Virus record (IMG/VR): IMGVR_UViG_3300048028_000141 | Span: 1-27,706 of that record | DNA from: a virus | Direction: 5' to 3' (one strand) | Length of the DNA stretch: 27,706 nucleotides | In this document: one piece after another, positions 965-27,706 of the stretch | Position numbering within the stretch: position 1 is the stretch's first letter | How the letters are laid out: each line of letters starts with the position of its first letter | Program-made: the position numbers and the translations under genes | Notes under the pieces: model-generated | The model's input: the letters and a program-made list of their open reading frames with translations, nothing else | Databases searched by the model: none | What the model was told of the DNA's origin: nothing

Positions 965-2182
965 TTACTCGTGTTCTTTAGCAACACCCGATGTTGTTGC
1001 TCCATCTCCATCACCATCTGATATTACTACCATTGCTTTCCAGTCATCATCTATACCAATGCTTTGTGTGAATGCGTCTCTTGCCGTATCGTCTGCTATT
1101 AAACCAGTGACCAACTTAGTCACCAGTGCGCCAGATGGTCTATTTGCATTTGGTGTTGGTATTGTGATTACATCACCAACTTTATATGTTTGTCCACTAG
1201 TACTCAAGAATGTATTCCAAGAAGCCTGATTGACATCTGCTGTCTGATCACCAAGTTTATATATTCGAACACTTGTATTAGATGGTATAGATGCCATATC
1301 TACAGGAACAGCAGGCTGTACTGTAATCTGTGAGCCAGATGCTCTTGTTGTTGGAGTTGCTGTACCACCAGTACCAGTATTTACATAACTTGACAATTGA
1401 CTGTTTACAGTAAATGTTTCGCCAACAGCAGGGTCAGAATCTGCACCAATCGCATTCCAGTTCCTGTTAGAACCAAGATTACTTATTTTATATGTCTCAC
1501 CAACAACCAAGTCACTAAATGCTATACCTGTTTGAAGATTAGTTGTTGGGTAAATGTCAGCATCAACAAAAGTAATCTGCTTCTTGCTAGACACCGGTCC
1601 GAAGAAGTAACCTTTCATTGTGAAGTTCAATGTCCAAATCAACGCTCTTCTTGATTCAAAGTCGCCCTCGTATGTGTCTTCTTGTGACACACTGTTTAGT
1701 ATGATTGGTATATCGAAGTATGTGTTTAGTTCATCAATCAACTTAACACTCACTGTACAATCTGGTTTGAAGAATGGTAGTATCTGCTCAACAATCTTTG
1801 TACCATCTTCGTTATATTTTGTCATAATGTTCAACTGAAACTCAATATCGTATGGAGCAGGTGAAAACATTGTAGTCATTGTTCCATCAGCCGCACTTGC
1901 TCTAACCAGTTTTGTCACACTTGTTAACTTTCTATCTGGCGCATATGTCATTCCAGTCATTTCAAAAGACATTCTTGGTAATGTGATTGCGGGTGCATTG
2001 TTCTGTAGATTCTGATCAAGTCTAGCAAGTATCTTTTGCATTGGTGCGTAGTTGATCGGCACCTTCATTCTTTGAGTGGTTGTGTTTCCAGTCTTTCTGC
2101 TTATTTCGATGTCGTTAAACATCGTGCCGAATACAGCAACATATCGTCTAGTCGTCTCGTTGTAAAAGTGATTACCGTACAT
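965..2182 (-). CDS. gp15: Tail sheath stabilizer/terminator gp15 with extended modular C-terminus
   Basis: T4 gp15 (272 aa) caps the contractile sheath and tail tube and joins the tail to the neck. Residues 1 to about 205 carry the family core: MYGNHFYNETTRRYVAVFGT at the start, KVPINYAP, SFEMTGMTY, and WTLNFTMKGYFFGPV near 190-205. The protein is 405 aa, about 130 aa longer than in T4. The extra C-terminal part holds two copies of a short module (Y-x-I-x-x-LG, a Trp-Asn, then VG-x-x-F/I): GETYKISNLGSNRNWNAIGA near residue 226 and a divergent one near 303 (RIYKLGD with SWNTF and YKVGDVI). The end is Asp/Gly-rich. Its ATG shares one base with the gp14 stop (TAATG), suggesting coupled translation. 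Confidence 0.9.
   Translation of the reverse strand: MYGNHFYNETTRRYVAVFGTMFNDIEISRKTGNTTTQRMKVPINYAPMQKILARLDQNLQNNAPAITLPRMSFEMTGMTYAPDRKLTSVTKLVRASAADGTMTTMFSPAPYDIEFQLNIMTKYNEDGTKIVEQILPFFKPDCTVSVKLIDELNTYFDIPIILNSVSQEDTYEGDFESRRALIWTLNFTMKGYFFGPVSSKKQITFVDADIYPTTNLQTGIAFSDLVVGETYKISNLGSNRNWNAIGADSDPAVGETFTVNSQLSSYVNTGTGGTATPTTRASGSQITVQPAVPVDMASIPSNTSVRIYKLGDQTADVNQASWNTFLSTSGQTYKVGDVITIPTPNANRPSGALVTKLVTGLIADDTARDAFTQSIGIDDDWKAMVVISDGDGDGATTSGVAKEHE
1159..1506 (-). repeat. Two copies of the 'Y-x-I-x-x-LG ... W-N ... VG-x-x-F' module in gp15
   Basis: Copy 1 (1506-1347) encodes GETYKISNLGSNRNWNAIGA, then AVGETFTV and a GTGGTATPT tail. Copy 2 (1272-1159) encodes RIYKLGD, SWNTFLSTSGQTYKVGDVIT. 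The family recurs in the 716-aa, 1357-aa, 1607-aa and beta-helix genes. The copies are diverged in sequence but keep the order of Tyr, Leu-Gly, Trp and Val-Gly. Confidence 0.65.
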
Positions 2183-2967
2183 TAGAAAATATCATCTCCA
2201 AATGGGTTGCCTTGACTGAAGTCAATAATGTTATCTGCTTGAATACCAGTATTAACCATGTCTTCAAACGCAGTGTTTTGACCACCTGTATTAGCATCAA
2301 ATGTTGCATCATCAACAGGAGTACCATCAGCCTGAACAGTCTTGTGATTAGAAAATACTGCTGTAATTAAATCTGCTTGTGCTTGCGTTAATACGCCAGA
2401 AACTTCAGGTATTGTAAATCTTTCTTGACTATATTCGAACAACTCACACTTCAGATCAAATGTTTGTAGTGAACCCATTTGATAGAACACTGCTTCATGC
2501 TCAACAAATGTGATTTCGAATATCTTCTTGTTTAGTGGGAAGTATAAAAGATCGCCTTCAAGAGGTCTTCTTTCAGTAGCAGTAACACCACTTGTTCCTC
2601 TATCCACATCATCATTAGTACCATCACTATCACTGTCAGTAGTGTCTATAATATTAGAGACTGAATCTCTATATCTCTTTTGAGCGATAGTGAATGTGAT
2701 TGAGTCACGAACTTCAAGACCAAACTTAGATAAGAAGTCGCCTTCTCCCTCAAAGCCCTCAACATTCTTAATATACATTTCAACTGGATACGCAGAAAGA
2801 TACTGGGCCAAGTCATCTTCTTGAAAGATGTTGTCCCTAGAAGCAGGGTTTCTTGGAATATAGAAACAGTCAAGACCAAACATCTTGATAGACTCAATAA
2901 CCAAGTCTTCTATGAGTGACTGCTCTTGAGTATACCCATAGTTGTTGAAATAAGAATTTGTAGCCAC
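2182..2967 (-). CDS. gp14: Neck protein gp14
   Basis: gp14 joins gp13 in the T4 head-completion/neck structure that receives the tail. The 261-aa length matches T4 (256 aa). Family segments are SYFNNYGYTQEQSLIEDLV at the N-terminus, YPVEMYIKNVEGFEGEGDFL (60-79), KFGLEVRDSITFTIAQKRY (81-99), and the later PLEGDLLYFPLNKKIFEI. The start is GTG at 2967-2965 (reads GTG GCT ACA AAT), supported by AGGA 7 nt upstream; there is no ATG in a better position. An aspartate-rich stretch DSDSDGTNDDVD (111-122) resembles a thrombospondin type-3 calcium loop and sits in a variable region. Four bases separate it from the gp13 stop. Confidence 0.93.
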   Translation of the reverse strand: MATNSYFNNYGYTQEQSLIEDLVIESIKMFGLDCFYIPRNPASRDNIFQEDDLAQYLSAYPVEMYIKNVEGFEGEGDFLSKFGLEVRDSITFTIAQKRYRDSVSNIIDTTDSDSDGTNDDVDRGTSGVTATERRPLEGDLLYFPLNKKIFEITFVEHEAVFYQMGSLQTFDLKCELFEYSQERFTIPEVSGVLTQAQADLITAVFSNHKTVQADGTPVDDATFDANTGGQNTAFEDMVNTGIQADNIIDFSQGNPFGDDIF

Positions 2968-2971
2968 TCTA

Positions 2972-4231
2972 TTATCCTATCATATCGGTTGCGGGCAAAG
3001 AATAGCTTGAAGCCATTTCTTCTTCAAGTCTTTGAATCTCTTCTCTCGCATCACTTAAAATTTGTTCTCCATTGAACTGAACGCCACCGGGCAATGTCAT
3101 GCCATTGAACTTGGTGAGATTTGAACCCCACTGATACTTGATCTTAGCCGATGCATAGTTTTGTAGGAAACGGTCTTTCCAAACATCAGAACCATTTGAC
3201 GTATCTACAGTTTTATATGCTTCAACAACAATATAGTTACCCAGTGAAAGTTGATCCCAATCTGTATCAATCTGAATCTTGTTTGTGTGTCTATTGAATC
3301 TTAGTTGCTGTTTACCAACCAACATCTCATCTAAAAGAGATAGATGAGCCATTGACATATAGTAATGAGTTATGTTATAATTAACTATGTCGTGTAAGTT
3401 ATGAAGAATAAACTGATACTTTGCGTTAAACATACCAGTACCAGTAGATACTTCTGATTCCATTGGGAATAGATTAGAAACACCAATGTATGGGTCTTCA
3501 ATAGTCTCGAAAGTAAGACCAGTTGTTGAGCCAGCAACAGTTGTTTCGCCAGAACCATCTGTATTCTTTAACTGAAAAGTTCCACCACCAACTGAAGATG
3601 TAGATACTCTGTAGTCACCAGTTGCTAGTGTTGCTCCACCAGTTAACACACCAGATACTCTAATCAATTGACCAACTTCTGGAACATTTCCAGTTGTAGT
3701 GAACGAAGCAACTGTGTCAGACACTGCTATTGTGCCAGTCATCTTCGTCTTAACACTTAGATCAATGTAGCGAGTTTCGTACAACCCTCTGTATAAATCT
3801 GTTATTTGTCGTGCATCATTAGCCCCATGCACACTTGCGAAAGTATCACTTGTAGCGAACTTACCTATAGTAAACTCACTTAGAGATGGTCTTTTAAAGA
3901 AAACTCTGTTGTTATCTACATCGACTGCAACTACAGTTGCTTTTGCTGTGGCTTCTTCAGCACCACCACTAGATGAAGATACTTCTTTGATGACATCACC
4001 TACTTTGAAGTCACCCTCTGAAAGTGTGCTAAATTCGATATAAGAGTTCAGTACTCTGGCTTTATAATATACTTTTTCTACACCATCGAAGTGATAATCA
4101 TGATAATACGCTAACGCCTCATCAACTCTATCTGTCACTTGATCATCAGAAACATTGATATCGATTACTGGTTTACCCAGTTTTCTGAGACAATATTCTT
4201 TAAATTCGGCTTTAGTTGTTGGCTCTGCCAT
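2972..4231 (-). CDS. gp13: Neck protein gp13, enlarged by inserted modules
   Basis: T4 gp13 (309 aa) is a head-completion protein of the neck. Here the protein is 419 aa. The N-terminal core is residues 1 to about 57 (TKAEFKEYCLRKLGKP, DRVDEALAYYHDYHFDG). It resumes at about 245 with YIGVSNLFPM, FNAKYQFILHNLHDIVNYNI, YYMSMAHLSLLDEML and KIKYQWGSNL. Between these lie two short beta-type modules: about 70-130 (FKVGDVIKEVSSSSGG... VDNNRVFF) and about 163-243 (SFTTTGNVPEVGQLIRVSG ... GTFQLKNTDGSGETT). The second is shared with the 3' end of the plus-strand gene ending at 9755. Start ATG at 4231, with AGGA about 8 nt upstream and late promoter box TATAAATA about 34 nt upstream. It is the first gene of the gp13-gp17 transcription unit. 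Confidence 0.92.
   Translation of the reverse strand: MAEPTTKAEFKEYCLRKLGKPVIDINVSDDQVTDRVDEALAYYHDYHFDGVEKVYYKARVLNSYIEFSTLSEGDFKVGDVIKEVSSSSGGAEEATAKATVVAVDVDNNRVFFKRPSLSEFTIGKFATSDTFASVHGANDARQITDLYRGLYETRYIDLSVKTKMTGTIAVSDTVASFTTTGNVPEVGQLIRVSGVLTGGATLATGDYRVSTSSVGGGTFQLKNTDGSGETTVAGSTTGLTFETIEDPYIGVSNLFPMESEVSTGTGMFNAKYQFILHNLHDIVNYNITHYYMSMAHLSLLDEMLVGKQQLRFNRHTNKIQIDTDWDQLSLGNYIVVEAYKTVDTSNGSDVWKDRFLQNYASAKIKYQWGSNLTKFNGMTLPGGVQFNGEQILSDAREEIQRLEEEMASSYSLPATDMIG
3497..3745 (-). repeat. Module in gp13 shared with the plus-strand 1143-aa gene
   Basis: This segment encodes about residues 163-243 of gp13. It matches the product of 9456-9720 on the plus strand: TTGNVPEVG against TTGNLPELG, TFQLKNTDGS against TFQLKNQDGS, and TTGLTF in both. 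Similarity is visible at DNA level around the CAG-TTA/CTA-AAGAAT-x-x-AGATGGT core, suggesting fairly recent exchange. Confidence 0.7.
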
Positions 4232-4721: not shown

Positions 4722-5933
4722 ATGTCTACTTCTACTATAAAAAGAGGCCTTATCACTAGAGGTGTTGCAACAAAGGGTCTTATATTTGAATCAGAATTCG
4801 CAGTCACAGGTGAACTAACTTCAGTTATTACATCTGCTGGGTCACTTAGTGTCAATGAAAATATTGATGCGGATACTGCTGTATATACAGCTACCGCAAG
4901 AGATCCGAATGGTGTGACTTCTGGCTTCTCATTTGCCATATCTACTGGTAATTCTTCTGACTTCACGATAAACTCTAGCACTGGTGTTGTGACAATAGAT
5001 GCTTCTCCTAATTTTGAAGCACAGCCATCATATTCATTTACAGTCACAGCAACAAAGAGTGGGCAACCAACAGCAACAAAAAATGTAACTATTGGTGTCA
5101 ATAATCTTGATGATACTGCACCAACTATTACTTCTGGTGCTACAGCGACAGCAATCGCAGAAAATTCTGGTGCAGGTCAGGTTATTTACACTGTAACTGC
5201 TGATGATTCTAGCGATATTTCTGGTGGAGTTACATTCTCGAAGAGTGGTACAGATCAGAGTCACATCAGCATAGACTCAACAACAGGCGCAGTCACATTA
5301 ACTGCTAACCCTGATTTCGAAACTAAGTCATCTTATAGCTTTAATGTAATTGCTACAGATGCGGCAGGCAATAATTCTACTCAAGCAGTGACACTAGCAA
5401 TTACTGATGACACTTCTGACAATGGTATTCAACACACAATCACTCATCTCAGTCAGTGTATTCAAGGTAGTTCCACACCATATACGGAAGCAAATGGCTT
5501 CTGTTTATATGGGGCACACTGGACAGGTAATTCTAATACCGGAAGCTATAGAGGCGGTTCGAGTGTTAGCCCTGATCATAACTCAATTTGGGGATCGAAG
5601 GGTGCAAATAATGCTAATATGATTCAAGACCTTTGTTTTACTACCAGTAACTATGGTGGATATAGTTCAAGCCAACCATCTCGTCATAGGTTTACCGTCC
5701 ATGTTGCAGGAAATCACTCTAACAACCCGACCAACTGGTCAGTTACCCCTAACCCAGGAGTATCAGAAACATTCAATAAAGCTGACCTTGATATAAATAC
5801 ATATCAAAGTAATGGAGCGCATTTCTATGAATGGTATCTGGGCGCAACTGTGCCTGCGTCAGGAACAGCATGGCACGCCGCTAAAAACTTTACAAATGGC
5901 AACACTTGGACAACAACATTCACTGTACTATAG
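4722..5933 (+). CDS. Cadherin-repeat adhesin-like virion protein
   Basis: A 403-aa protein with three parts. Residues 1-38 form a short basic N-terminus (IKRGLITRGVATKGLIFES), like N-termini of other small phage structural proteins. Residues about 40-130 and 138-230 are two tandem cadherin-type repeats: each has an acidic NEN/AEN start, an S-x-TG-x-V-T strand, (S/N)P-(N/D)FE followed by SYSF-x-V-x-AT, and an Asp-rich linker (NNLDDTAP after repeat 1, ITDD after repeat 2). In cadherins these acidic positions bind calcium between domains. Residues 236-403 form a Trp/Gly/Ser-rich globular domain that I do not recognise, ending HAAKNFTNGNTWTTTFTVL. No signal peptide or membrane segment is seen, which fits a virion component rather than a secreted host protein. 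AGAGG lies upstream of the ATG. Host-binding fibre or decoration is inferred. Confidence 0.7.
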   Translation: MSTSTIKRGLITRGVATKGLIFESEFAVTGELTSVITSAGSLSVNENIDADTAVYTATARDPNGVTSGFSFAISTGNSSDFTINSSTGVVTIDASPNFEAQPSYSFTVTATKSGQPTATKNVTIGVNNLDDTAPTITSGATATAIAENSGAGQVIYTVTADDSSDISGGVTFSKSGTDQSHISIDSTTGAVTLTANPDFETKSSYSFNVIATDAAGNNSTQAVTLAITDDTSDNGIQHTITHLSQCIQGSSTPYTEANGFCLYGAHWTGNSNTGSYRGGSSVSPDHNSIWGSKGANNANMIQDLCFTTSNYGGYSSSQPSRHRFTVHVAGNHSNNPTNWSVTPNPGVSETFNKADLDINTYQSNGAHFYEWYLGATVPASGTAWHAAKNFTNGNTWTTTFTVL

Positions 5934-6323: not shown

Positions 6324-9300
6324 ATGGCTGGCAATAGAAAATATCTAAAATTCGGGCTTAGAGCAGACAGAAATCTGGCTGATCTTACTGATGCAACATC
6401 GGCTATAAACAACCTGATAAACGATTTATCTGTGCAGGTAGATGTGTTTGGTAACGCCACCGGATTTACCACATTAGATATTGCTCCACTGAGTCAGATA
6501 TCTAGTACAGATATAGCTTCTACATTGCCATCAATTTCTGGGCAAATACCAATAGCCTTTCAATGGTTAGATAGTAGTCCAGAGTTTATTGATGTAACTA
6601 CAGGCACAGCGCCCAATCAGGTAACTACTAATGTTCTGGTTCAGCCTCAAGTAACACTACAAGACCTTATTAACAGACAAAAAGCAGTTCTGGGTGATCC
6701 ACCATTCGAAGCAGGTGGTGACGGTCCAAATGCAACTCTCATACCATCCACACGACTAAATGGTGATTACGAATCTTCCTTTGGAGAAAATAATAAGTTC
6801 AATCTTTCTAATATACGAAAAGGTGATAGATATAGATTTGAAGCTATTGGTAGTGAGACAAACCCTGCCTTCTTTGATTCTATAGCAGTTACCAATAAAG
6901 GAAGTGCATATGTAGTTGGAGATATTTTTGTAGCATCTACAAGTGGCTCGCATTTTTTCAGTTTAGATGATTTAGACGATACAGCAGAAACTATAACTTT
7001 TGCGAGTGAACATGGTCTAACAAATGGAATGGAAGTTCAGTATCTAGAAGATGGTAACACACCTATATCTGGTCTGACTAATACTGATACTTATTTCATA
7101 GTTAGTGCCACATCAAACAGTATAAAATTATCTGCTTCTAGTGGTGGTGATCCTGTAAACTTTACAAAACCTGATTTTGGGGTTGGTACATCATACAGAC
7201 TAGTTCTTATAGGCACCACTAGTACATTCGTTAGAAATGTAACAATGCCTAGCGGAAACTATGCTACAGCGGCACAAGACCTTGACGCAAATAAACTCAA
7301 TGCAGGAACTGTTTACACCAGAAAAGACTCACTAACTCTTGCATCATTAAAATTTGATGGAAGCTACTGGAACGATACTGGTGATTTTGAGATAGAAGCT
7401 AATATCGATAATGGATTTCCAGACAAACTTGGTGGTATACAATTCGAGGGTTTTCAGGGCGGTGGATTTGAGCCTAGTATACAAACTAATGGTTTAGTTA
7501 CAATTGAGCAAGATATAGTAGAAGATGGTTCAGATGATAACTGGCAACTTCTCAGAGGAACAAACACCAATTTTGTAAGACCATTTCACAATATAACATA
7601 TAGTACTGTAAATGGTAAAACTAGAGTTGTCTTCAGCAATGCAGAAGATGGTAAAAGAGTTGCCGTCGGCATGAAAGTAGAACTTAAATTAGACTTAGAA
7701 CAGGCGACAGATAGAGATGCCATTACTGGAGACCCGCCAGCTAATACTGGATTTGCTGAAGGTAGAGTGCAAGAAGTAGTATACAATTCATCTACAGACT
7801 CATACTATGCTATTTTGATGGCTCTTCCACCTGTTCCAAATTACCAAAATTCGCCTGTTCAATTCATACAATACCCTACATCAGGAACAGTTGCTGAAAG
7901 ATTTCAGCAAGGGGTTTATGTAGATGCTGTAGACACTGTTGGTACAACAGATGCTGAATTTAGCTATACTTTAGGTGGTAGTGAGGTTATAACCTATAGT
8001 AATTTTAACTTTAGAAGACCAGTTGGAACAGGTAATAGACGAAGAATTAGATTTACTGTTTGGTGGCCTAAGGGTAAAGATATAGAAGAAAGAGTAGAAT
8101 CAAAATTGTTTCAAGATATAGCATCTAACAATAGCTTTGGATTTACTAGTTTTTACAAAACACAAAACACTCAAGACTTTAATAGTAGACGATATAGCTT
8201 TCCGTTTTTTAAAGATAACAGAGCAAGTGTATTACAGCAAAAAACAAATAACGAACTTAAAGTACAAAATCTACTAAGAAACAGCTATACGCCGAAAAAG
8301 AAAAGTTCTGAGACTCTTCTTAGTTATAATAGCAATAATACAATAGCACAAAAAACTATTAGTGTTGATGCTAAAGGTTTAGCCACATATGGAACTGGCA
8401 ATGGATCGTCTCCACCTGCTGAACTTGGTGATTTTGTTGTCATAGAAACTTCTGGTGGCGAATACTTTGCATTTCAGATAAAAGAAGTCTCTACAAATGC
8501 CGATACTTTTTTACTAGATTCGACCTTTTTGTCGAAAACTAACTATTCGGCAGGCACGGATTTATATGTCACATATGTTAAAAACAAGGGCTTGATAGGC
8601 ATATACAAATATGACTACAATAGCAGTAATCATAGACTCAGACCTTTAGGTGCTGATTCAAATAATCCATTGGGAGCAGTATCAACTCCTGTTTCAGAAA
8701 TCGCTTCTGGAGATTTAGCTTATAAAATAGACTACGAGTATGGGGCGGGCACTCATGCAACACACGAGTATGGATTTAAGATCGATACAATAAATCATGC
8801 TGATGACGACACCGCAACTGAAGCAAACATAACAGTAGAGGCTCCATTTTACGATTCTTCTGCAACACTTACTCAAACAGATGGTATAGTTCTAATCTAT
8901 GCACCAAGAGGATTACAAGATAGATCAGCTATAACAGAGTGTACTGGTGTAATCGGTCATGAAGTGGGAGCAGAAGCATCTAATAACCAAAACACAATAG
9001 TCTTAAAAAGTGTTGAAGGGTTAACTGCAAGAGATGCAGGAAACTCCGTTATTGGTGACTTTGTTTTTGTTTCTGGTAGTGTGCCATTTGAAGGCACAGA
9101 CTCATCATCGGCAAATTATTTAACTCAAGTGGGTAGCATAAACACTAGTACGAAAACTATAACGCTTGTAAATAACTCTGGTAATGCAGTGCTTGTATCA
9201 AAAATAATGCCAGCCGGTACAACCATAGTATTTGTCCCTTCAACAGCAGGCCCTAATTCCGATGGTTGGGGTAAACAAAATAAAGAATACTGTATTGCTC

Positions 9301-9755: not shown

Positions 9756-11902
9756 GAAACTAGTACTTTATAGTCTCCTGCGGCTAAATCAGAAGAATCT
9801 AATTTCGCCATTAGAAAATATGTTTCTCCATTGACCACTATTGGAACTTTATGTGTGTAGTCAGTTATTTGTGTAGCAGTTCTAGTTCCTAGACCGCTTC
9901 CCTCATATGCATCTTGATCTGCATCGGTGAATATTAATTTAGGAGTTCCTCTTGCCTTTCCACCAGTTCCGCCGTCAGACGATCCACTTGCTGTCGCACT
10001 AAACGAGTCGCCTTCTGAGGGACTAGGCCCAGCACCATTTTGATTAGCAACCCAACCAACTGTAGTCCAATCTCTTCCTGATCCAACTTCAGTTATTATA
10101 TATTTTTCGTTAGGAGTGAAGCTACCATAACTGTCTTGGTCAGCCCTATCGAAATTAAAGTCTTGTGCCTGTGCTACTGCCGATTCAGTTTTTAGCGCAT
10201 TTATAGTAAGCGTTCCTGGGTTCTTAGCTATTTGAATTGCATTTCCTAATGTAGAATTATGCTCAGTCCACGGATTACTTGGATCAGTAAACGCTCTTGT
10301 TGCAGTACCAGTCTGCGTATTAAGAATATATAAACCCGGTGGATTCACTGCTTTAGCTTTAGAACTTGAAACTGTAATTTGACCTTTAGATGTTGCTTTG
10401 AATATAACAGGATTTACAACAGAGTTTCCTATAGTTGCTCCATCTGTATTCGCAGTAAAGTAACTACCAACTGCATATGTAACAGCAGTAGTATTAGCGA
10501 TAGCGTTCCATCTCAACTGAGGGTCTACAGTTAAAGTATAGTCGCTTCCACCTTCACCAAGAATCCCTATTTGAATGACATCACTTCCACCAGGAGTTGC
10601 TTTTAACTTAATGAAGTTACCACTAACATCTTGAATATAGTACACCCCATCAGCAGTATCTGATATTGGAGTTAGATTAGATATTGCTGTACCAGTACCC
10701 TGCCTATACACCACTTTATCTCCCACGACCAATCCACTTGATGGGCCTACATTAATCGTATGGGTTGTTCCGTTAACAGCAGTGTTTGAGAAAACAAATA
10801 CTCCATTAGTCCCTATATTGGCATTACCTAAAGATTTTATTTTATATACTGTGTTCTGAACAAAGTTTCCAGATGTCACATCTGGTACAGTGGGAAGAAG
10901 TTCACTTGCACCGACTTGATTCCAATTCCCAGTACCAAGATCAGTGACTTCATAATCATAACCAACGGCAAAAGAGCCATAAACAGTAGGGTTTCCGATA
11001 ATAACACGCAGATTATCAGAATTTTTTAAATTTTTAATTCTATTAACACCATCAAACCTTAACCCACCAGAAGTAATAACATTGTCATTAACATATGAAA
11101 GCAAGACATTATTTTTCTTGAAGTTTATTGTACCCAATCTAGTATTGATTGTTTCTTCTCTAAGAAATGGATTGGATATTCTTTCCTCAATCGGTATTAT
11201 AGACTCTTCGGAAGAACTTTTGGTCTGAGCGTGTTCAATATAGATATTTTTAAAGTTTTCTGGGGTAATCTGATCACTTCTAGTAAAGCTAATGTTGTCT
11301 ATACTGTATGATGTGCTACTTATGTTGAAATTTCCACCGGTGACAGCTAGTGGAGTATTACTTGTATCGCCAGCTAGTGCTATCTGGAATGAATTTATTC
11401 CGTCACTATTGATTGCTTTAATTGGAAATGTTGCCCCCTTATCTACCGACAATAAAGTTCCATCTGTATAAGCCACCTTACCTTGACCTAAGATAATTTT
11501 TATAGTCCAACCGTCATTGGGGTCGTTTTCAACAGTGAAGTCTGTTCTTCCAACAACTTCTCTTACGATTCCGCCCTCTCCGGTATAACCTGATCCAGAA
11601 TATGCAGTTGCTGTGAATACAAGATTGGATTCGGCACTAGTTACGCCATATAAAGTCCAATCTCTATTCCCCAACTCGATTATCTTATATGTCTTACCAT
11701 CTTCAATTTGTTGATAACCAGTTTCCACAAGAGATAACGCATTAGGGTCATTCAGTATAACTGACTTAAATTTAGTGTTTCCATCGAAAAGTCTAAGGTC
11801 TTTAGTTATACCAGAACCACCAAGATTATCTAATATTTGAGTATCAGATACTTGGGTAGAACTTTCTAATAAGTTTAAATTTCTTACAAAACCTTGTGCC
11901 AT
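9752..11902 (-). CDS. Modular beta-rich structural protein, 716 aa
   Basis: The N-terminus (FVRNLNLLESSTQVSDTQIL, then DNLGGSGITKDLRLFDG) resembles fibre attachment segments. The protein contains at least three clear copies of the Y-x-I-x-x-LG-x-x-x-W module: GKTYKIIELGNRDWTLYG (about 68), YDYEVTDLGTGNWNQVGA (about 315) and KYIITEVGSGRDWTTVGW (about 599). A fourth copy looks split by a different module (about 345-465). Much of residues 150-300 is unrecognised beta-rich sequence. The start is backed by AGGAAAGGAAA directly upstream. It lies 9 nt after the stop of the leucine-rich-repeat gene and ends in a 4-nt convergent overlap with the plus-strand gene. A virion fibre/baseplate part is inferred from context; no function is proven. 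Confidence 0.72.
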   Translation of the reverse strand: MAQGFVRNLNLLESSTQVSDTQILDNLGGSGITKDLRLFDGNTKFKSVILNDPNALSLVETGYQQIEDGKTYKIIELGNRDWTLYGVTSAESNLVFTATAYSGSGYTGEGGIVREVVGRTDFTVENDPNDGWTIKIILGQGKVAYTDGTLLSVDKGATFPIKAINSDGINSFQIALAGDTSNTPLAVTGGNFNISSTSYSIDNISFTRSDQITPENFKNIYIEHAQTKSSSEESIIPIEERISNPFLREETINTRLGTINFKKNNVLLSYVNDNVITSGGLRFDGVNRIKNLKNSDNLRVIIGNPTVYGSFAVGYDYEVTDLGTGNWNQVGASELLPTVPDVTSGNFVQNTVYKIKSLGNANIGTNGVFVFSNTAVNGTTHTINVGPSSGLVVGDKVVYRQGTGTAISNLTPISDTADGVYYIQDVSGNFIKLKATPGGSDVIQIGILGEGGSDYTLTVDPQLRWNAIANTTAVTYAVGSYFTANTDGATIGNSVVNPVIFKATSKGQITVSSSKAKAVNPPGLYILNTQTGTATRAFTDPSNPWTEHNSTLGNAIQIAKNPGTLTINALKTESAVAQAQDFNFDRADQDSYGSFTPNEKYIITEVGSGRDWTTVGWVANQNGAGPSPSEGDSFSATASGSSDGGTGGKARGTPKLIFTDADQDAYEGSGLGTRTATQITDYTHKVPIVVNGETYFLMAKLDSSDLAAGDYKVLVS
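9941..10111 (-). repeat. Module copy in the 716-aa gene (third clear copy)
   Basis: Encodes KYIITEVGSGRDWTTVGW, a spacer, then EGDSFSATASGSSDGGTGGK. It is the most complete example of the dispersed module, with the terminal glycine-rich GTGG tail also seen in gp15. Other copies in this gene are at about 10870-10964 and 11555-11701. Confidence 0.65.
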
Positions 11903-11911: not shown

Positions 11912-14900
11912 CTATGTTGCGTCTATCTGCACTGTCCAGTTTGAACTCAACAGTGTTTGAAGTTTTTCATATGTGGTACCCTCACCTTCACCTAAGGCTT
12001 GTATTGATGCTATCGACAAACCGTTGTTGTTTGTAAGATTCACAGTAGCGTTTCTATTTGTATTTGCGATATAATTGGTATATAAATCATCAATAATCTG
12101 ATAAGCACCAGAAGTTAAAGCATTATTGCTGAAGTTAAAGTTAAGACAAGAAGTACAAGTATCAATACGACTATTATTCGTATACGAATCAAAACGATTG
12201 TATTGCGCTTGAATTTCTAAAAGACCAGTACAAGCACTTAAATCTGGTACTGGGCCGCTAAACTCATTTTGGAAAATTTTAAAATTCTGTAAGTTTGGTG
12301 CATCAACCGCAGGGAAAGCGCCTGACAAAGAATTACTTTGTAAATTCAAAGTCTCCATAGAATCTAGATTATCCATGTTACCCAGAGAGCCAGTAAAACC
12401 TATGCTTTTAACAACTTGATTAGAAGACTCTAGTCTTACAACAGTACCAGTACCATAATTAGCCGCTCCTGATATTCTTTCAAAATAATTACCAAGTATA
12501 GACGAAAAAAGCGCAATTACCAAGGCGCCACCAGAACTGCCGTATCCACTATTACTCACTGTGATTGTATCACCCTCACCCCTTACGGTACTACTACCAG
12601 TCCAATGTGTAATTAAATCATTCCAACCACTTAACCCTTGATATTTTCTTCTAATCTTATATGTACCAGTATTTGACGCAACAACAGAATCTATAACTAT
12701 ATTGACCGAACTACTAGCTTCAAATGTATCCCCTACTGAGTATACTACGTTAGAAGTACCTGCGATTGTATTCCATTGGGCTTGGGTTGTATTACCTAAG
12801 TCAGTAATTCGATAATTCATATCCTGTGTTAATGTGTTTACATCAAGTGGTGTATATTCAAAATAATCTCCGACCGCAGGGTGAGAGCCTCTAGCGAGAG
12901 AATCTCCCCAAGTCACAACATCAGAATTTGTTTCTGAACTGCTCCAACCAATATCTTCAAACTCATGCGGCATTATACCAGATGTTCCCAAACTCTCAAG
13001 TATGGCAGTATTACCGATAGCAACACCGGCATAAAACCCCGAAGTATTTCCAAACGGCGCTTGAGTTATTTCATATATATTCTTTCTTTTCAATGAATCA
13101 AATGGAACCTCTTTATTTGTCTTTTCAAGATTCACTGTATCCAAATCATTCAAACCAGTAAATGTTGGAATAGCACCATAGAAGTGTCCATCACTAATAG
13201 TCAAACTTTTTAAATTTTCCAATTCGACAAAACTGATACCTATAGGAGTAGACCCCTCATCATTAATTAATCTACCACCCATAACAGATGTACCTCGTAT
13301 TTCTATACTCTGCATTGATAGTCTTACGCCAGTAAATAGTTGTCCTGTTCGATTTGCAGTTCCATCAACACCAAAGAAGTCGAAACCCTTATTAGATGCG
13401 GTAGAATTTGGAACAGGTGCTGTTGGGTCATTAGCGTTCATAATAAATTTAAAAGTCTCTAGCTGATTTGGGCTATTAAGACCACCACTACCAAAAGTAT
13501 TATCACTGAGAATAAACTCAAGTCCATTAACATTGTTAAGAGTAATACTTTTTATCGATTCTTTATCTACAAAAATATTACTAATATCTCCTCTTGGTGC
13601 AAAATCTGAGTCGTAGTTACGACCAATATTTGTAAAGTTAAAACTTGTCATTGAAGTAAGACCAACAAACTTATTTGCCGAAATATCTCTAAGTGCGGCT
13701 GTTTCTAGACTTGTTGGAAAATCATGATTTACTATAGACAAAGATGTCAGATTGTTATTACCACTTATATCGGGTATATTACATTCTGCTTGGTCAAGAT
13801 TAAGTTCTTTGAGTAATTTACTATCAAAATATATTGCTGATTGAAATTCACTTTCTGCAATCGTAGCAGAGTTTGTTGAGTCTTTATTTTGATAATCACC
13901 ATTACCAGTAATAACCAATCCACTAACATTAACTTTTTCTAACCTCGTACTATTCAATACTGAGTTTGGTAGTCTGGTATAACCTGCGTTTGTCACAGTA
14001 TAATTCTTGGCGCCTACAGAGGGAGTGGTGTGCTTTTCACCTAGCTTAGAATCTGAAGCATCATAATTCCATTTTACTAGTTCGTGAAAATTACCAGAAC
14101 CAGTACTGCTAATTGAAAATGTGCTGTCTGTATTACCATCTGTGTCGGTGGGGCTTGTTAATCTAACATGATTAGAATCAAGACTTATAACTTTATAGAT
14201 TACATTACCTTGTGTACCAACACTTGTGTCGGAAGCAGACGAAGAAGTCAACCCTCCGGGTGCTACACCTAAATTATTCGAATCGTCTACTCTTGCTATG
14301 TACTGAACAAAATCTCCAGTAGAGAATTGATGAGAACTAATTGCAATCTTGTGTGTACTAGCATTACCAGTTGTTACATTTGAACTAGAAAAACTTGCTC
14401 TGTAGTTGGGGTCAGCCATAGCAGGCGCTGTGCCAGTAGATGTAATACGATCAGTTAGATTACTACTACTAGCATTTCCTATTTTAAATTCTTCTAGATT
14501 TGTTATGTGTGCAAGAGATATCGTTCCAATATTACCACTAAAGCAATCTTGAAGTCGTAAGTCTTCGACAGTAGGTGGTATCCTATTCAGTTGTGCTTGC
14601 GCTACAAGATTTTTTTGCTCTACAGTAGTAGATCCGTCTGGATAGGTAACTCCCAAATCATCCAAAAAGTTTTCGCCAGCAAATAGCGGGTTGTCACTAG
14701 CAAAAAGTCTTCTCAAACTTGGTGCTATTGTTTTAAAATCTGGTAACACCGAAAACTGGTTATTACTAATCTCTACACTAGTCAATGAAGGCAAAACGAT
14801 AAACGGAAACTCATTCATAAACAATGCGTTCAAGTCTAAATAATTTATTCTATCTGGTGGATAAAATATCTGTATATCAGCTTGACGATTTGACTGTGAG

Positions 14901-19884: not shown

Positions 19885-19887
19885 AGA

Positions 19888-22800: not shown

Positions 22801-24711
22801 AAGAAGACCATCTACACCAATTTCTCTTTGAGAGTATACTGACATACCAGTTCCTCGTAAAAACATAGAAGCATTGTATGTCGTTTCTGCATCACCACCA
22901 CCAATCGCATCATTCTTGTATCCATCAATAATATAACCAACATCTCTCTGACATTTGTTGGCTATGATTTCTTCAAGAATGTCATCAGCCGCATCATTAT
23001 CGCTTGCTCCTAGATACGTTTGTCCAAGTGGAAGAAGACCAGTACCGAGTGTACTGTCTGAACTAGTTCCTTCAGTTGGTGCTGTATATTCTATTGTCTC
23101 ACATACTGTACCACCAGTCAATGTACCCGCAGTAGCTACAAATGTTTGACCAACAAACGGACTTGATCCTGCACCCAAGCTAGCCAAGTTTCCGCCAGCA
23201 ACCCTGATAGTGTATTTTTTGCCTGCAGTTAGAGCATCATTCGTAGTTATAGTGTCTTTCTTAGCTGTTACATAGTATGACCAGAAGTTTCTCTTAACAT
23301 CAAAGAAAGTTTCTAATGCGTCTCTTGTTCCATATGTGATACCAGATGTTTGTGGTGCAAATGTATCAGTAGCAAAAGCCGCAAGAGTAATATCTGTTAA
23401 GCCAGTGTCTGCATCAGTACCAGAAAGTTTTGCTTTTGCGGCCGCTGAGAATGGTAGCGATAATGTTACAGTGCCAGTACCTGCGCCAGCACCATCATAG
23501 CCAGGAAAAACACCGCCAGCAAAAAATGCATTGTGTATTTCTCGGTGAATTTTTAGTTCAAATTCACTAATCTTAGGAAAAACTCCAACACTTGTGCCAG
23601 TCCATGCATTTGCACCACTAGTGATTAGAGTAAAGTTAGTTGTATTCCATTTGGTGTGTGCGTTACCACCATATTTCATGTCGAGTAGATAGTTATCAAT
23701 CCAGTAATCTAGATCACGCTTACACTTAGCTTCCATCTGTGCGGCAGTAAGCAAAGTAAGACCATCACTTGCCGCAAGATTAAATGCGGCGGCTAAATCT
23801 TCATAAAAATTATGAGCATGACTTCCGGCGCTTCTACTAAGAGTCTTATTAGAAGTTTTAGCACTTTCAACAACAATGTCCGTATCATCAGCGTCAGCCG
23901 TGTAGGCAGCCGTAACTTTGTTCAACACATCATCAATGAATTTGTATCTATTGTCTTGAAGAATTTGTCTATCAGATAAAAGTTCACCAACAAACTCTGC
24001 TTTTTCTGGTGCCCCCAAACCAACTATTCTATAATCATCAATCTGAGTAGCAGGTACATCGGCAGTTGGGTTCTCTCCTCTTAATGGAGTAGAGTCAGCA
24101 GAGTCTACTGCTTTTACACCATATGGGCTTATTGGATTGTATGCTAGAGATTGTGTTCTTCTTACAGCAGTAAAGTTATCATCTACTCCACTATTTCTAG
24201 TTTCCCAGTAATAACCATCGTATTTGTCATAGATGCCGTACTTACGAATAACTGGATTCTCTGCAAAATCGGCTTCTGAAACAGAACTTCTAATACCAAA
24301 TGTAGCCGCAGATACACGACCAGGCTGATATCTGAAGAAACGCTTTGATGTGAGTACAGCAATTTTGTTTCGTGATGCTTCTACAAGGGCGCCGGCTTCT
24401 GTAGGAAGATGCTTAATACCATCTCCACTAACATGATATGCAGGCTTCATTGACCACTCAGATGGGTTAACATCATAAGTGTTTACATCAGCAAAAATAC
24501 CAAGTGCAATCTCTGCTCTAGGAATACCTAGCAAAGAAAGAGCAACTTCTGATTGAACTTTATTCTGTTCAACTACAGGAATAGCAGTTTGATCCGAAGC
24601 CATCACCACTGGAATAGATTTTGCCGCTAATTGTGCGCCAGGTGTTACTGGGGTCGTTCGACCTACATTAACTACGCTTGCATTTTGGTTTACATTTGTA
24701 ATACTTGCCAT
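19888..24711 (-). CDS. Giant virion structural protein, paralogue 2 (1607 aa)
   Basis: The N-terminus contains KSIPVVMASDQTAIPVVEQN, a motif widespread in phage structural proteins, then LSLLGIPRAEIALGIFADV and RFFRYQPGRVSAATFGIRSS (about 123). Two helical units around KC-(K/Q)-RD-(L/V)-x-Y-x-ID (about 325-355 and 583-615) are an internal duplication; each is followed by a YGGN/IGGG turn and a W/Y-rich segment. A GKKYTIRVAGG module copy is at about 494. The block MLKIEFSWYGAVGALFLAYI with PVGNGEARWVRVHHL lies at about 1063-1100 and YYIDGGDRGTVRLY at about 1160, both shared with the downstream paralogue. A GHGINDGDTVRLIDGSG module is at about 1240. The start has AGGGAAAAG close upstream. No enzyme signature is present. 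Tail/baseplate structural role is inferred. Confidence 0.82.
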   Translation of the reverse strand: MASITNVNQNASVVNVGRTTPVTPGAQLAAKSIPVVMASDQTAIPVVEQNKVQSEVALSLLGIPRAEIALGIFADVNTYDVNPSEWSMKPAYHVSGDGIKHLPTEAGALVEASRNKIAVLTSKRFFRYQPGRVSAATFGIRSSVSEADFAENPVIRKYGIYDKYDGYYWETRNSGVDDNFTAVRRTQSLAYNPISPYGVKAVDSADSTPLRGENPTADVPATQIDDYRIVGLGAPEKAEFVGELLSDRQILQDNRYKFIDDVLNKVTAAYTADADDTDIVVESAKTSNKTLSRSAGSHAHNFYEDLAAAFNLAASDGLTLLTAAQMEAKCKRDLDYWIDNYLLDMKYGGNAHTKWNTTNFTLITSGANAWTGTSVGVFPKISEFELKIHREIHNAFFAGGVFPGYDGAGAGTGTVTLSLPFSAAAKAKLSGTDADTGLTDITLAAFATDTFAPQTSGITYGTRDALETFFDVKRNFWSYYVTAKKDTITTNDALTAGKKYTIRVAGGNLASLGAGSSPFVGQTFVATAGTLTGGTVCETIEYTAPTEGTSSDSTLGTGLLPLGQTYLGASDNDAADDILEEIIANKCQRDVGYIIDGYKNDAIGGGDAETTYNASMFLRGTGMSVYSQREIGVDGLLGLSEPDRHEHLRKILKIELFEAIDQFGLPGYVAATIRDKVAGDSGSLAKLIVNNFEQENTKSCETGSKGFPGNLVALRDGLIHVHGAVYDPSLLKEAEKIKAIVTLGDVGTSPVTASVFKIVKGSVTFGQHVKLSWTGDATEIPIQSGGSAQKVKKGEVLRVSRVIGPKGNEFKLLKEGGAGKPPVALTVVSGGTVGTPPLTVDTFYIETVVPFIFPKDYDTHGTIGVVDYTSEIDTTEATLTNNASTDNLNAGTGQRVFSNRAAAFETKRVPKGAMFPYMYATEDDLTSTELGEKYIGFINTATDPQKTVGAVTNGGVDVIRSQIDNVNFYPEYVNWIKNNVKPEYWGVYEYRVPRSRFSHDALDGIKGSAGNFKTRIAPGRRNRVFSDIATTFDGKTARPGANYLESEGVSEQQNSLYNFDFTKVTMLKIEFSWYGAVGALFLAYIPVGNGEARWVRVHHLRASNQLKIASLGNATLPITYTTYGGGDVNALGDGEEVGDSANPAPQHGYSTVSHNIVKYGASYYIDGGDRGTVRLYSHNNQSTVSARGKQFAVSNVTALTGTITGEPSTTPRLVPNEVYIEKTIALDSSAAISNGAVSNVTAGHGINDGDTVRLIDGSGSNTLVAGDYTVSASGATSFTLTNAGSATSGDQMAGVILQKIVTIDPTFYIGAKVKTDSALDQNVEVIWAQGANVFLSAPLNSTSGVSLLPDRSATVYGVETKKSIKSTREGNVVRNRVQVYPTKMSTANIGNDTVRLRFKKTPLFQTNIAPDETVDSSSGLRLSADYTIDNTNASLPVVSAASGYLQNGQDTYGWFRGRVESAGVTVFGRLYKEADYYYFELLESFEGSVTLINGGRFLADKKFQADGNTVTYTNTSSKVLEEKEGLSSVEIASNIVVPIANTGVNVATTYLRSGTEQFDLSAYFDYNKEYLSFPLTDVADTLYFAVDSDTASTNTDEISLGVTWEEQ
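21190..21530 (-). repeat. Conserved block shared by the giant paralogues (copy 2)
   Basis: Encodes KIEFSWYGAVGALFLAYI through YIDGGDRGTVRLY in the 1607-aa protein. It is the partner of the block at 18200-18470. The distance between the two sub-blocks differs slightly because of an Ala/Gly-rich insertion here (about residues 1115-1150). Confidence 0.75.
23100..23232 (-). repeat. Diverged module copy in the 1607-aa gene
   Basis: Encodes GKKYTIRVAGGNLASLGAG, then FVGQTFVATAGTLTGGTVCE. The tryptophan is replaced, but the start, the VGQ-x-F strand and the glycine-threonine tail are retained, so this is a diverged member. Confidence 0.5.
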
Positions 24712-24720: not shown

Positions 24721-27706
24721 CTATTTAATAAGCCCTTGTGCCATCACAAAGTCGTCTATTATATTTAGTGTTCCGCCAGATGCAGAGGCGCCCCCATTTT
24801 TCTGTCCTATAATGTCGTCTGTCGCAGTAGCATCGTATGGTATGAAGTTACTGCTACCACTCAAGCCTGCTTGTGTAGAGTGTGGAGTAACACTCATATT
24901 AGTATATGTTGTTCCGAAGTACTCACCAAAGTATCTAATGATTACCTTTTTAGTTGTTGCTGTATCTGGTTGTATGTCTACAATTATACCGAAATCTTTA
25001 AGAGTTGATCCAGTTTGGAATGTACCATGATTGTCTACAGTAACCGCTCTACCAACTGCAAGATGTTGAAAGTTTTGAACAGTTACTTTGAAGTCTCTAT
25101 AAACTCTATTAGTATTCATAATCGCTGACATATTACCTGAAGCGGCATTTGCGTCAGTACCGTCAGCGTTTTTACCTAAATGATCCAAGCCTGTAGTTGC
25201 GTCAAAATAACCAACAACACCGTTACCAAGACCTGCTTGCTCAGTACCATTAGCAAGAGTATAACCCCAGAATCCCTGATCTGTTATATCACCAACTCTT
25301 ACTGCATTTCTATAACTCGCTGAATAGGCAACACCTACATGATAAGAATTAAATGGATGTATTCTACCAGAAGTACTATCTGTAGCACTTTGCTTAACTC
25401 TACTGTTGTATAAATCTGTTAAATGCCCACGAGTATAATGTAAACTAGTCAAAGCCTGAGCATTTGTATTATCGATCTGATACTGGAACTGCCCGTTTTC
25501 TGGAAGAACTGGTTGACCATCTACTGACCCACCTGAATAATTTGTAATAGAAATCTTTGGCTTAACTCCAATAGTTACACCTTGAGTTGGTATTGCAACA
25601 GTATTTTTATAGCCCACAAACTCATCAGGTGTTACTGTGCCTGTTGTTGGTGTACCACTGCCCGGATGAGCCGATTTTTCAACTAGTGTTGCTCCATTAT
25701 ATGTGAACTGTACGCCAGTCTTGTTAACAGCCGCACCTGCTCTAGTCCAATCTGTTGCGGTAGCGGCATCAGCACCAAGATCAACAATAGTATATTTCTG
25801 ACCAGTTACTAAAGCTACATTACTTGCCGCAGATGAAGTTATAGAAAATGCTTGATCGTTAATATCTTTGGCGCCGGGCCCAATTATATGACCATAGAAC
25901 TCTTCAGCAGTATCGTCAGGCGAATCTGCGGCAGGTCTATATTTTCTTACCATGTTTGCTCTGAATATAATTTCTGGAGTGCCGACTGAACTCTGAGTCA
26001 AGTCAAATATTTCTCCATTTTCTTGATACGCAAACACATCACTATGTACAGGAGTTCCACCTTGTAACTGTTGTGTTATTCTACTTCTTAGAATATTAAT
26101 AGAATCATATTCGCTGTTAAGAACATCTGGAGTAGACAAGAACTCATTAGCAGGTCCCATCATAACATTAGGGCTACTAACTAAGAATGTTGCTCCATAT
26201 ATAAACAAACCAGAACCACAATTCTTGATTACATTATTAGCAATAACAGAACCACCTTTAGTTACAGAGGCGTCTATTGGATCAGTGAAGTTTTTAAATA
26301 TATTACCATTGACCATAGTATTTTCGCCGTCATCAATGACTAGCGGACTTCTACTAGGAAGTCTATCACTTACGCCACTATTCGATACTTCACTATTGAT
26401 CATTTTAAGATCAATTGGGCTACTTGCGTAAACACCATCACCTGCTATGTTTTCAAATATGCAGTTGTCAATCAATACATTAGAAGATGCTACATCAAAA
26501 TTTACAAATGTATTTATTGATAAACCACCACTATCATTCAAAAGATATTGGTTTCTATTATTACCATCAAAAATCAATCCAACCAAAGATACATTCTTAC
26601 AAGCACCTGGGTTAGATGTTCTTAGAATTGGAGTAAACGCACTAGCTTCATTTGGATTTGGATAGGTACTCCAAGGCAACTTCTTAATTTTAGTAACGCC
26701 CGGAACACCAATAAGACCAAAGTCATCTGGTATTGCTATACTGCTTACATTGTAAGTCTTAGCGTTAAATTGTACACGTTTAGTACCAATACCAGTTGCA
26801 GATTTATCAGATATAGCACTTTCAATTAGTGCAGTATTATTATGTGCTATATACGCATTATTCTGTTGTGGGTGACTAATTCCGTTTATGAAAACAGAAT
26901 TACTGCCAAAGACGATATCAAAGTTATCAGTGTTTTCAACAATCTCCGTAATTGTAAGATCAGCCCAGCCTGCATATGTAGTTGTTATAGTTTCATCACC
27001 AACCAGTGTTGCAGGGAAGTGTGTCAGTAATCTTTCTCCAGTCTCTGGATCGGTTTCTATATAAGAATTATCCAACTCATTTTTACCAGACCAAGAAACA
27101 TAATCAAATGTGTAATAATCGATAAAAGTTCCACCACCAGTAGGTAAATCTTTAGGGCCCAAAACACTTATCAGTTTAAATGCTCCTGAAGTCCCAACTC
27201 TGCGATATACTAATATACCATCTGTACTTGCTTTAGTAATCGACAACGAAAGAAAGTTGTTTAAGTTGAATGCATTATAAATGTCATTTTGAGAGGTTTG
27301 TTCTGTAGCATTACTGGTGGTGAATGTAATACTTTGTGTTGCTTCTCTTTGACCAATTTGCCCTGTCGCTAGATTAAATGGTGCTATTTTGTATTGAAAC
27401 TCTAGTGTATTAAAACTACCAACAGTTGTAGTAAAACCAGTTGATGAAATAGCCCCCAAAGCAGTAGCGGCCGCAGATGGGGCTGAAGCATCAGTTGGAT
27501 TACAACCATAGACTCGTAGAACTTGACCATCTCGAAAGTTACTTTTGTGTGTATTAGAAACTCTAATAGACCTTGATGTGGTGCCGCTATCGCCTCCTAT
27601 TGGATTCCAAACACCAAGAACATCTTGAACACTATCTGCTACATCTCCACCATCAAATGAATTACTATATTTATTGAACTCAGTTGGAAATATTGTTTCT
27701 AGTTTG
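24721..27706 (-). CDS. Beta-helix tail-spike/fibre-type structural protein (open at right edge)
   Basis: The frame stays open to base 27706, giving at least 994 codons. The apparent start at 27459 is a TTG leucine inside continuous coding sequence: 82 further codons precede it, containing SVQDVLGVWNPIGG and FRDGQVLRVYG. The true start is outside the window. After an N-terminal beta region, the segment encoded at about 26880-26090 has a right-handed beta-helix pattern with short repeated turns: NVLIDNCIFENIAGDGVYAS, LKMINSEVSNSG, NTMVNGNIFKNF, SVIANNVIKNCGSGLFIYG. Pectate-lyase-like folds of this kind are common in phage spikes. A Y-x-I-x-x-LG module follows (25631-25812), then a C-terminal domain with YHVGVAYSASYRNAVRVGDI. 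No catalytic residues could be assigned. The next gene begins 9 nt downstream. Confidence 0.8.
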   Translation of the reverse strand, partial: KLETIFPTEFNKYSNSFDGGDVADSVQDVLGVWNPIGGDSGTTSRSIRVSNTHKSNFRDGQVLRVYGCNPTDASAPSAAATALGAISSTGFTTTVGSFNTLEFQYKIAPFNLATGQIGQREATQSITFTTSNATEQTSQNDIYNAFNLNNFLSLSITKASTDGILVYRRVGTSGAFKLISVLGPKDLPTGGGTFIDYYTFDYVSWSGKNELDNSYIETDPETGERLLTHFPATLVGDETITTTYAGWADLTITEIVENTDNFDIVFGSNSVFINGISHPQQNNAYIAHNNTALIESAISDKSATGIGTKRVQFNAKTYNVSSIAIPDDFGLIGVPGVTKIKKLPWSTYPNPNEASAFTPILRTSNPGACKNVSLVGLIFDGNNRNQYLLNDSGGLSINTFVNFDVASSNVLIDNCIFENIAGDGVYASSPIDLKMINSEVSNSGVSDRLPSRSPLVIDDGENTMVNGNIFKNFTDPIDASVTKGGSVIANNVIKNCGSGLFIYGATFLVSSPNVMMGPANEFLSTPDVLNSEYDSINILRSRITQQLQGGTPVHSDVFAYQENGEIFDLTQSSVGTPEIIFRANMVRKYRPAADSPDDTAEEFYGHIIGPGAKDINDQAFSITSSAASNVALVTGQKYTIVDLGADAATATDWTRAGAAVNKTGVQFTYNGATLVEKSAHPGSGTPTTGTVTPDEFVGYKNTVAIPTQGVTIGVKPKISITNYSGGSVDGQPVLPENGQFQYQIDNTNAQALTSLHYTRGHLTDLYNSRVKQSATDSTSGRIHPFNSYHVGVAYSASYRNAVRVGDITDQGFWGYTLANGTEQAGLGNGVVGYFDATTGLDHLGKNADGTDANAASGNMSAIMNTNRVYRDFKVTVQNFQHLAVGRAVTVDNHGTFQTGSTLKDFGIIVDIQPDTATTKKVIIRYFGEYFGTTYTNMSVTPHSTQAGLSGSSNFIPYDATATDDIIGQKNGGASASGGTLNIIDDFVMAQGLIK
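25631..25812 (-). repeat. Module copy in the beta-helix gene
   Basis: Encodes GQKYTIVDLGADAATATDWT, then GVQFTYNGATLVE and PGSGTPTTGTVTP. It matches the family order and is placed directly C-terminal to the beta-helix region. Confidence 0.6.

Follow-up and report, generated by a model that had tools for sequence, protein, structure and literature searches.

Ig-like and other small beta domains shuffled among phage virion proteins were reportedly described by Fraser and colleagues in 2006. The short unit described here, which we call module A, resembles Ig-like and other small beta domains in being small and optional, in occurring in unrelated structural genes, in varying between near relatives and in undergoing recombinational exchange. 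However, an Ig domain is larger than module A, and module A also differs in that no Ig-named Pfam model is listed for it, no PDB fold matches it and it is split by other modules. Receptor-binding and neck proteins are already known to show domain mosaicism (Smug et al. 2023, PMC10684548), so the principle behind the spread of module A is not new. In the sense of mosaicism used there, module A is a homologous fragment present in six otherwise unrelated genes of the stretch of DNA analysed here (the window, 27,706 bases), the tail sheath stabiliser and beta-helix genes included, and in remote hosts as well. Carbohydrate-binding modules have been described for 936 lactococcal phages, on their neck passage and tail proteins (PMC6669499), and they share with module A the location on neck and tail proteins of tailed phages, whereas module A matches a carbohydrate-binding module at chance level only and has no conserved polar site. 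Pelagimyophages carry a host recognition cluster between VrlC and the neck gene gp14, and this cluster (PMC7029224) is like the window in placing variable virion genes beside neck genes in marine T4-like phages; what the passages on this cluster describe is the variability of whole genes together with YHYH, concanavalin A, collagen and YadA domains, not module A. The Aurunvirus cyanophages S-TIM5, S-TIM54 and S-TIM61, the nearest isolates that share the gene order, have the gene order, gene size and strand of the window, but a profile search of their 50-kb stretches at E <= 0.1 recovered no copy of module A. We found no prior description in the open-access literature of the module A fold, of its spread over core and fibre proteins or of its nesting.

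The window is the entire IMG/VR record IMGVR_UViG_3300048028_000141 and belongs to a T4-like phage, with the T4-type genes gp17 (partial), gp16, gp15, gp14 and gp13 at its left end. The genes gp16 and gp17 are named by position. The product of gp15 is the tail sheath stabiliser (PF16724, 3.6e-75; phrog_227, 2.1e-80), gp14 matches PF11649 and phrog_460, and gp13 matches phrog_211. To the right of the neck genes lie a cadherin-domain protein, the 1143-aa, 716-aa, 1357-aa (LRR), 1299-aa and 1607-aa genes and a beta-helix protein, all of them long and of virion type. The gene adjoining the neck genes is the 403-aa gene with the cadherin-type domains (window 4722-5933; PF00028, E 4.5e-23). The last six genes of the window agree in position, size and strand with the virion gene block of S-TIM5, S-TIM54 and S-TIM61, and in a comparison with S-TIM5 and S-TIM54 the 1607-aa, 1299-aa and beta-helix genes showed protein similarity, so that for the remaining genes the match to the S-TIM block rests on order. 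The 1299-aa and 1607-aa proteins (window 15985-24711) each match both counterparts in S-TIM5 and S-TIM54, and for that reason look like paralogues.

Module A is present in the window as ten homologous copies of about 45-65 aa in six genes: two in gp15, four in the 716-aa gene and one each in the LRR, 1607-aa, beta-helix and 1143-aa genes (Table 1). Homology was tested with profiles from which the host gene was held out each time, and scores were compared with 1,414 decoys made by local shuffling or reversal of the window proteins. With profiles from 5-7 hand-cut seeds out of five genes, gp15 copy 1 scored 28.3 bits, two copies of the 716-aa gene 15.4 and 14.1, the LRR copy 19.4 and the beta-helix copy 11.9, against a best decoy of 8.8-10.6; with these few-seed profiles, neither gp15 copy 2 (0.5 bits) nor the 1607-aa copy (6.1 bits) scored above the decoys. 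Relatives were gathered with gp15 and the 1607-aa gene, and iteration of the profile over the reading frames of 143 loci and of the window, 144 sources in all, yielded 212 hits from 68 of these sources. Near full length was reached by 176 of the 212 hits, 44 of which were dropped because they were more than 85% alike, and the resulting set has 132 rows. When the profiles were enriched with the relatives' copies and the entire host family was excluded, all ten window copies scored above the best of the 1,414 decoys in their own run (8.3-11.3), a test that is not fully independent because the relatives' copies were first recruited by seeds from all five genes. The thinnest margins belonged to the N-half of the outer split copy (13.8 bits, decoy 11.3) and to the 1143-aa copy (13.3 bits, decoy 9.7), and these two copies are the least certain. 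The 132-row model located module A at 12 positions of the window (E <= 0.01): seven copies are full or nearly so, two are partial (the 1143-aa copy and a C-half of the 716-aa gene), two are N-halves and one is a weak fragment. A weak partial module A was seen before the LRR copy (window 12851-12994; 12.2 bits, E 0.005), and is perhaps a decayed or split second copy.

The first-pass annotation had proposed a single module family in at least five unrelated virion genes, and every copy that it named proved real when held-out profiles were set against the 1,414 decoys. It had counted correctly for gp15 and for the LRR, 1607-aa and beta-helix genes, too low for the 716-aa gene, where at least three copies had been given and four are present, and it had missed the 1143-aa copy. 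It had also located the copies about rightly, with gp15 copy 2 running somewhat further.

Table 1. Module A copies, module B copies and the gp15 host gene in the window (residue numbers of the proteins in brackets)
Feature	Position	Strand	Evidence
Host gene gp15, tail sheath stabiliser; conserved core about 1-215	965..2182	-	PF16724, phrog_227
Module A, gp15 copy 2 (297-350)	1133..1294, end about 1112	-	21.7 bits, gp15 held out
Module A, gp15 copy 1 (219-278, C-terminal extension)	1349..1528	-	62.5 bits, gp15 held out
Module A, 1143-aa gene (160-206)	6801..6941	+	13.3 bits held out; 28.3 with full model; shuffle maximum 8.8 (n=300)
Module B, directly after A, 1143-aa gene (207-296)	6942..7211	+	B profile 66.6 bits; copy is a B seed
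Module A, 716-aa gene site 4 (592-652)	9947..10129	-	35.9 bits held out
Outer split A1, C-half, 716-aa gene (496-516)	10355..10417	-	4.5 bits alone; invariant F, A, T in alignment
Inner split A2, C-half, 716-aa gene (462-493)	10424..10519	-	23.2 bits held out
Module B inside A2, 716-aa gene (362-461)	10520..10819	-	B profile 55.0 bits, E 5.8e-16; copy is a B seed
Inner split A2, N-half, apparently nested in A1, 716-aa gene (347-361)	10820..10864	-	15.9 bits alone
Outer split A1, N-half, 716-aa gene (305-339)	10886..10990	-	13.8 bits held out
Module A, 716-aa gene site 1 (62-118)	11549..11719	-	33.0 bits, family held out
Module A, LRR gene (1050-1105)	12671..12838	-	43.0 bits, LRR family held out
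Module A, 1607-aa gene (492-541)	23089..23238	-	27.6 bits held out
Module A, beta-helix gene (630-693)	25627..25818	-	31.4 bits held out

The core of module A follows the pattern Y-x-I ... G ... W ... VG-x-x-F while its loops vary, and over the 132 copies its conserved letters are Y in 129, I in 126, F in 125, G in 122 and W in 119, with a further G among the strongest positions. At none of the 16 most conserved positions is a charged residue the commonest letter, which is the pattern of a structural core and not of an active site. Fold prediction covered gp15 copy 1 and the nested region of the 716-aa gene. For gp15 copy 1, AlphaFold2 with the 132 rows as alignment predicted a compact fold (pLDDT 89.6, pTM 0.74) with strands at residues 11-16, 37-39 and 55-58, residues 23-26 forming a helical turn, and for the nested region, with an alignment of 10 rows, the model reached a pLDDT of 39.3, too low to be usable. 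Foldseek found no PDB fold match to the gp15 copy 1 model (best E 4.1), none of 23 chains reached Z >= 2 in VIA-align, and BFVD gave no match at E 0.001 (best 0.014); the first eleven BFVD entries had probabilities of at least 0.90, TM-scores of 0.63-0.76 and 23-41% identity, and nine of them were named uncultured Caudovirales phage. At the level of sequence, Pfam families matched at most 2 of the 132 members each (best E 0.0051), families of PHROGs and NCBIfam at most one each (best E 0.0032 in PHROGs, 0.014 in NCBIfam), and PDB sequences gave two chance-level matches (E 2.6 and 3.8). An Ig-type domain was looked for by name among the Pfam matches listed (25 of 27 families), where there was no Ig-named model, and in the PDB fold search with the best E just given; a carbohydrate-binding module, CBM_5_12, appeared in one of 132 members at E 0.08, which is chance level. 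Module A is, as modelled, a small independent fold lacking a counterpart in Pfam, NCBIfam, PHROGs and the PDB at the sensitivity used.

The most elaborate arrangement is in the middle of the 716-aa gene, where module B interrupts the inner copy A2 and A2 in turn appears to interrupt the outer copy A1. This split arrangement is common to ten relatives (L088 being the same as L007 there), and the same spot holds a single module A in eight relatives and nothing in two; seven of the eight single modules are profile hits, and the eighth is nearly identical to one of them. Halves were also scored joined, with a profile that contained no 716-aa copies. The A2 halves of the window scored 15.9 and 27.5 bits alone and 46.8 bits when joined, the joined A2 beat all 100 shuffled tails in ten of ten rows, and module B lay between the A2 halves in all ten. 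The joined A1 beat all 200 control tails in five of ten rows, and in the other five, the window included, it was equalled by 2-24 of the 200 control tails (by 2 in the window); three of the five rows that passed fully or nearly so are close relatives of one another. The splitting of the outer copy A1 is therefore read from these alignments as moderately supported. Site 4 of the same gene measures 113-121 aa in L089, L091 and L005, with a second module A within the first, and 60-66 aa in the other seven relatives listed. Among 20 relatives, site 1 had the module in 16, lacked it in three and was not alignable in one, and site 4 had it in ten, lacked it in nine and was not alignable in one. A search for relatives of the 716-aa gene by peptide patterns confirmed none.

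Module B is a second scattered module of beta type, and its three seeds are the copies in the 716-aa and 1143-aa genes (Table 1) and one in the LRR gene (14114-14380). In the relatives' set its profile, B seeds included, matched 80 times in 48 sources, and no decoy was hit at E < 0.001. There is also a third scattered module, C, with four seeds in the gp13, 1143-aa, LRR and 1607-aa genes (3506-3739, 9453-9704, 15380-15607 and 20836-21033) and 81 profile hits in 58 sources. The B and C profiles share one stretch of the 1607-aa gene, and the two modules may be related. In the 1143-aa gene, where B directly follows A, the distance between the same flanks is 159 aa in the window and 69-84 aa in five relatives; the C-terminal piece after B brought no gain in A score, being equalled by 227 of 300 shuffled pieces.

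Comparison of relatives at each site, as the first-pass annotation had in view, showed that the presence of module A varies, most clearly in the tail of gp15. Copy 1 is missing from gp15 of L003 and L004, where 57 of 60 residues upstream are identical to the window and the shared GSQITV tract follows downstream. It is otherwise found only in L002, which is identical to the window, and in L005, whereas copy 2 is the one common to most relatives with the module here, L009, L014, L016 and L021 having it. Of 54 relatives, 18 carry the module in the gp15 tail (mostly copy 2, some of them copy 2 only), 31 do not, two have other sequence and three are truncated. The identities of the gp15 core to that of the window are 205/215 in L004 and 201/215 in L003, both without copy 1, and 190/215 in L005, which has it. 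The distribution of copy 1 thus departs from that of the gp15 core, which points to repeated loss, repeated gain or sideways passage. A recent gain of copy 1 was considered and dropped, as the core identities leave gain, repeated loss and sideways transfer side by side. Between the window and L005, copy 1 differs about as much as the rest of the gene, with no excess. Outside gp15, copy 1 comes closest to the 716-aa gene, namely to its site 1 in L095 (34/54 identical) and in L016 (28/54), which is a hint of transfer between genes.

The other sites vary between relatives as well, counted wherever a reading frame covers more than 40% of the window protein. At the 1607-aa site, 8 of 55 relatives have the module, 16 have other sequence, 29 have nothing (at most 25 aa) and two are not alignable; at the beta-helix site, the module is present in 31 of 53, other sequence in two, and 20 are not alignable; at the LRR site, the corresponding numbers are 14, 1 and 21 of 36. 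Since the flanks at these sites are mostly 30-60% identical, only the gp15 case compares near relatives. A further host gene of about 1,400-1,770 aa was seen upstream of the beta-helix gene in L116, L129, L082 and others, just beyond the right end of the window in the relatives, with module A in 30 frames (of 31 unassigned frames, one lies elsewhere).

The term "mobile" in the first-pass annotation is too strong for this history. When the 132 copies are arranged in a tree, the site label changes 33 times, against a mean of 96.3 and a minimum of 89 in 200 shuffles, and the genome label changes 120 times, against a mean of 116.1; the nearest copy in the tree is from the same site in 109 of 132 cases and from the same locus in 2 of 132. 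This strong clustering by site, with none by genome, indicates that the copies are mostly old residents that descend vertically in place. Thinning of the set did not hide recent copying within genomes, since none of the 44 dropped near-identical copies had its like in the same locus. An autonomous mobile element, or frequent copying within genomes, was among the candidates and is disfavoured by the genome label and by the two same-locus neighbours. In L115 (16013-16201 and 9235-9444), the nearest tree neighbour of a module A in a gene of the 1299-aa type is the copy in the beta-helix gene of that locus, a possible within-genome transfer; two beta-helix copies of L123 are slightly closer to that 1299-aa-type copy by pairwise score.

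The description "recombination-prone" holds in part. The 1143-aa gene of L020 is identical to that of L021 at 150 of 155 residues upstream and 711 of 740 downstream, but at only 24 of 67 across the module stretch, where it is instead identical to L016 at 74 of 84. In this swap, pN is 0.382 in the module against 0.100 in the flanks and pS is 0.876 against 0.220, which exceeds all 56 other segments of the gene, and it is a clear allelic swap by recombination. The patchy presence of gp15 copy 1 stands beside it. Gain, loss and swap of module A are real, yet rare beside vertical descent. Silent divergence is not generally raised, however. Across 183 overlapping pair-sites, pN was higher in the module in 151 and pS in 83. 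From these, 39 non-overlapping pairs were picked, closest first, using the gene family of each locus once and omitting pairs without protein change; module pN exceeded flank pN in 27 of the 39 (p = 0.024, somewhat too small because two of the 39 pairs are near-duplicates), and pS was higher in 14 of the 39 (p = 0.11). A general recombination hot spot was likewise tried as an explanation and set aside on the silent divergence, one clear swap notwithstanding. In several close pairs, the module is equal to or slower than its flanks, for example in the LRR and beta-helix genes of L086 and L129. The pattern of pN and pS fits a weaker or more varied constraint on the protein sequence of the module and is no demonstration of positive selection. 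Between the window and L082, the beta-helix gene differs at 11 of 210 nucleotides in the module and at 17 of 2763 elsewhere (Fisher p about 1e-6, in a test chosen post hoc that takes bases as independent), and the differences in the module form a tight cluster that shows no bias towards adenines. Another 11 differences from L082 form a second cluster outside the module, at nucleotides 2473-2564 of the same gene (window 24721-27705).

Beyond the relatives, a DNA pattern for module A found at least 120 stretches in viral contigs. Among the 80 loci kept of those listed, 59 had a profile hit, with 79 hits in 62 reading frames, and 21 had none. The hosts were scanned in ten of the 62 frames, chosen by hand among the long and high-scoring ones, and seven of the ten had a PHROG match and three had none. 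The best PHROG per frame was tail protein, tail sheath, virion structural protein, head closure Hc3 (twice), baseplate wedge and central tail fibre J; the tail-protein frame also matched a tail collar domain in Pfam, and in one Hc3 frame an amidase family came close behind. These remote copies in tail-sheath, baseplate and tail-fibre (gpJ-like) proteins bear out the suggestion that the module is spread over neck, baseplate and fibre-type proteins; as the ten frames were chosen by hand, they do not establish that module A is restricted to virion proteins. Ten viral records from the relatives' set were also searched, and eight had whole or partial matches, with 8, 9, 13, 14 and 15 matches in five close relatives (31-51 kb) and 0-4 in the five others. 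Single copies gave no tblastn match to named phages and the consensus gave two weak ones, including one weak and unconfirmed match in S-TIM54 (30 residues, 56.7%, E 0.03), and absence in tblastn means little because low-complexity filtering may hide copies.

The reading towards which we lean is that module A is an insertable, exposed surface unit of virion proteins that is inherited mostly vertically and is sometimes gained, lost, swapped or interrupted. It would face outward on the virion and would probably be a decoration, making weak contact with the host envelope or with glycans or acting as a spacer, and would be neither an enzyme nor essential to the structure. A decoration or spacer that lies exposed and changes readily is favoured by the virion-type hosts, the optional presence, the conservation of mainly the core, the acceptance of loop insertions and the pelagimyophage-like neighbourhood. 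In such a scheme, a compact fold with a conserved core of hydrophobic residues and glycine and with varying loops would be placed in core proteins, at their loops, linkers and C-terminal tails, and, once placed, would remain there mostly through vertical descent, with occasional gain, loss or allele replacement via recombination. The module itself may then be broken into by other modules, as B in A and apparently A in A. Alternatively, the modules may be structural glue that stabilises the contacts of neighbouring virion subunits like cement domains, with no host contact. This would suit their location in neck-, sheath- and baseplate-type proteins and not in fibres alone, the conserved core without a conserved polar site and the long retention of modules at their sites; however, near relatives whose otherwise conserved proteins lack the module are hard to reconcile with an essential contact, and the divergence of the module protein tends to be higher, and we regard such a role as rather improbable.

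It is also conceivable, and we think unlikely, that module A is a tolerated passenger, a compact fold whose insertion into loops is near neutral, that spreads by recombination and has no function at most sites. Nested insertions in different loops and the lack of the module in many relatives are in line with this, and relaxed constraint predicts the quicker protein change without raised silent change that was seen. Nevertheless, the core residues are conserved even in remote phages, which places folding under selection, and copies persist at the same site across wide divergence. The clustered differences between the window and L082 within modules could recall the target of a diversity-generating retroelement, in which a reverse transcriptase rewrites the module, but in this one genome pair no more than 3 of 11 changes and 8 of 26 fall on adenines of the window coding strand, and there are modules that match their flanks in rate or change more slowly, so that this explanation is very improbable. 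Equally far-fetched is a chance resemblance among beta-rich phage sequences: the few-seed profiles did not lift the 1607-aa copy and gp15 copy 2 above the decoys, but every copy stands above the 1,414 decoys with the enriched held-out profiles, and one copy has a confidently predicted fold.

The exposed surface unit that we favour may have a wider meaning. We tentatively consider it possible, while regarding it as somewhat doubtful, that module A is a widespread fold that serves both as a general insertable surface unit and as a landing place for further modules in neck, sheath, baseplate and fibre proteins, giving Russian-doll proteins. If this is true, phages would extend their surface via nested modules while core assembly stays untouched. 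Large marine phages have long virion genes whose function is unassigned, and module A splits parts of them into a core and optional inserts. Recognition of the module makes the idea of exposed decoration testable module by module, and module A provides an unusual natural record of domain insertion and, apparently, of nested insertion too.
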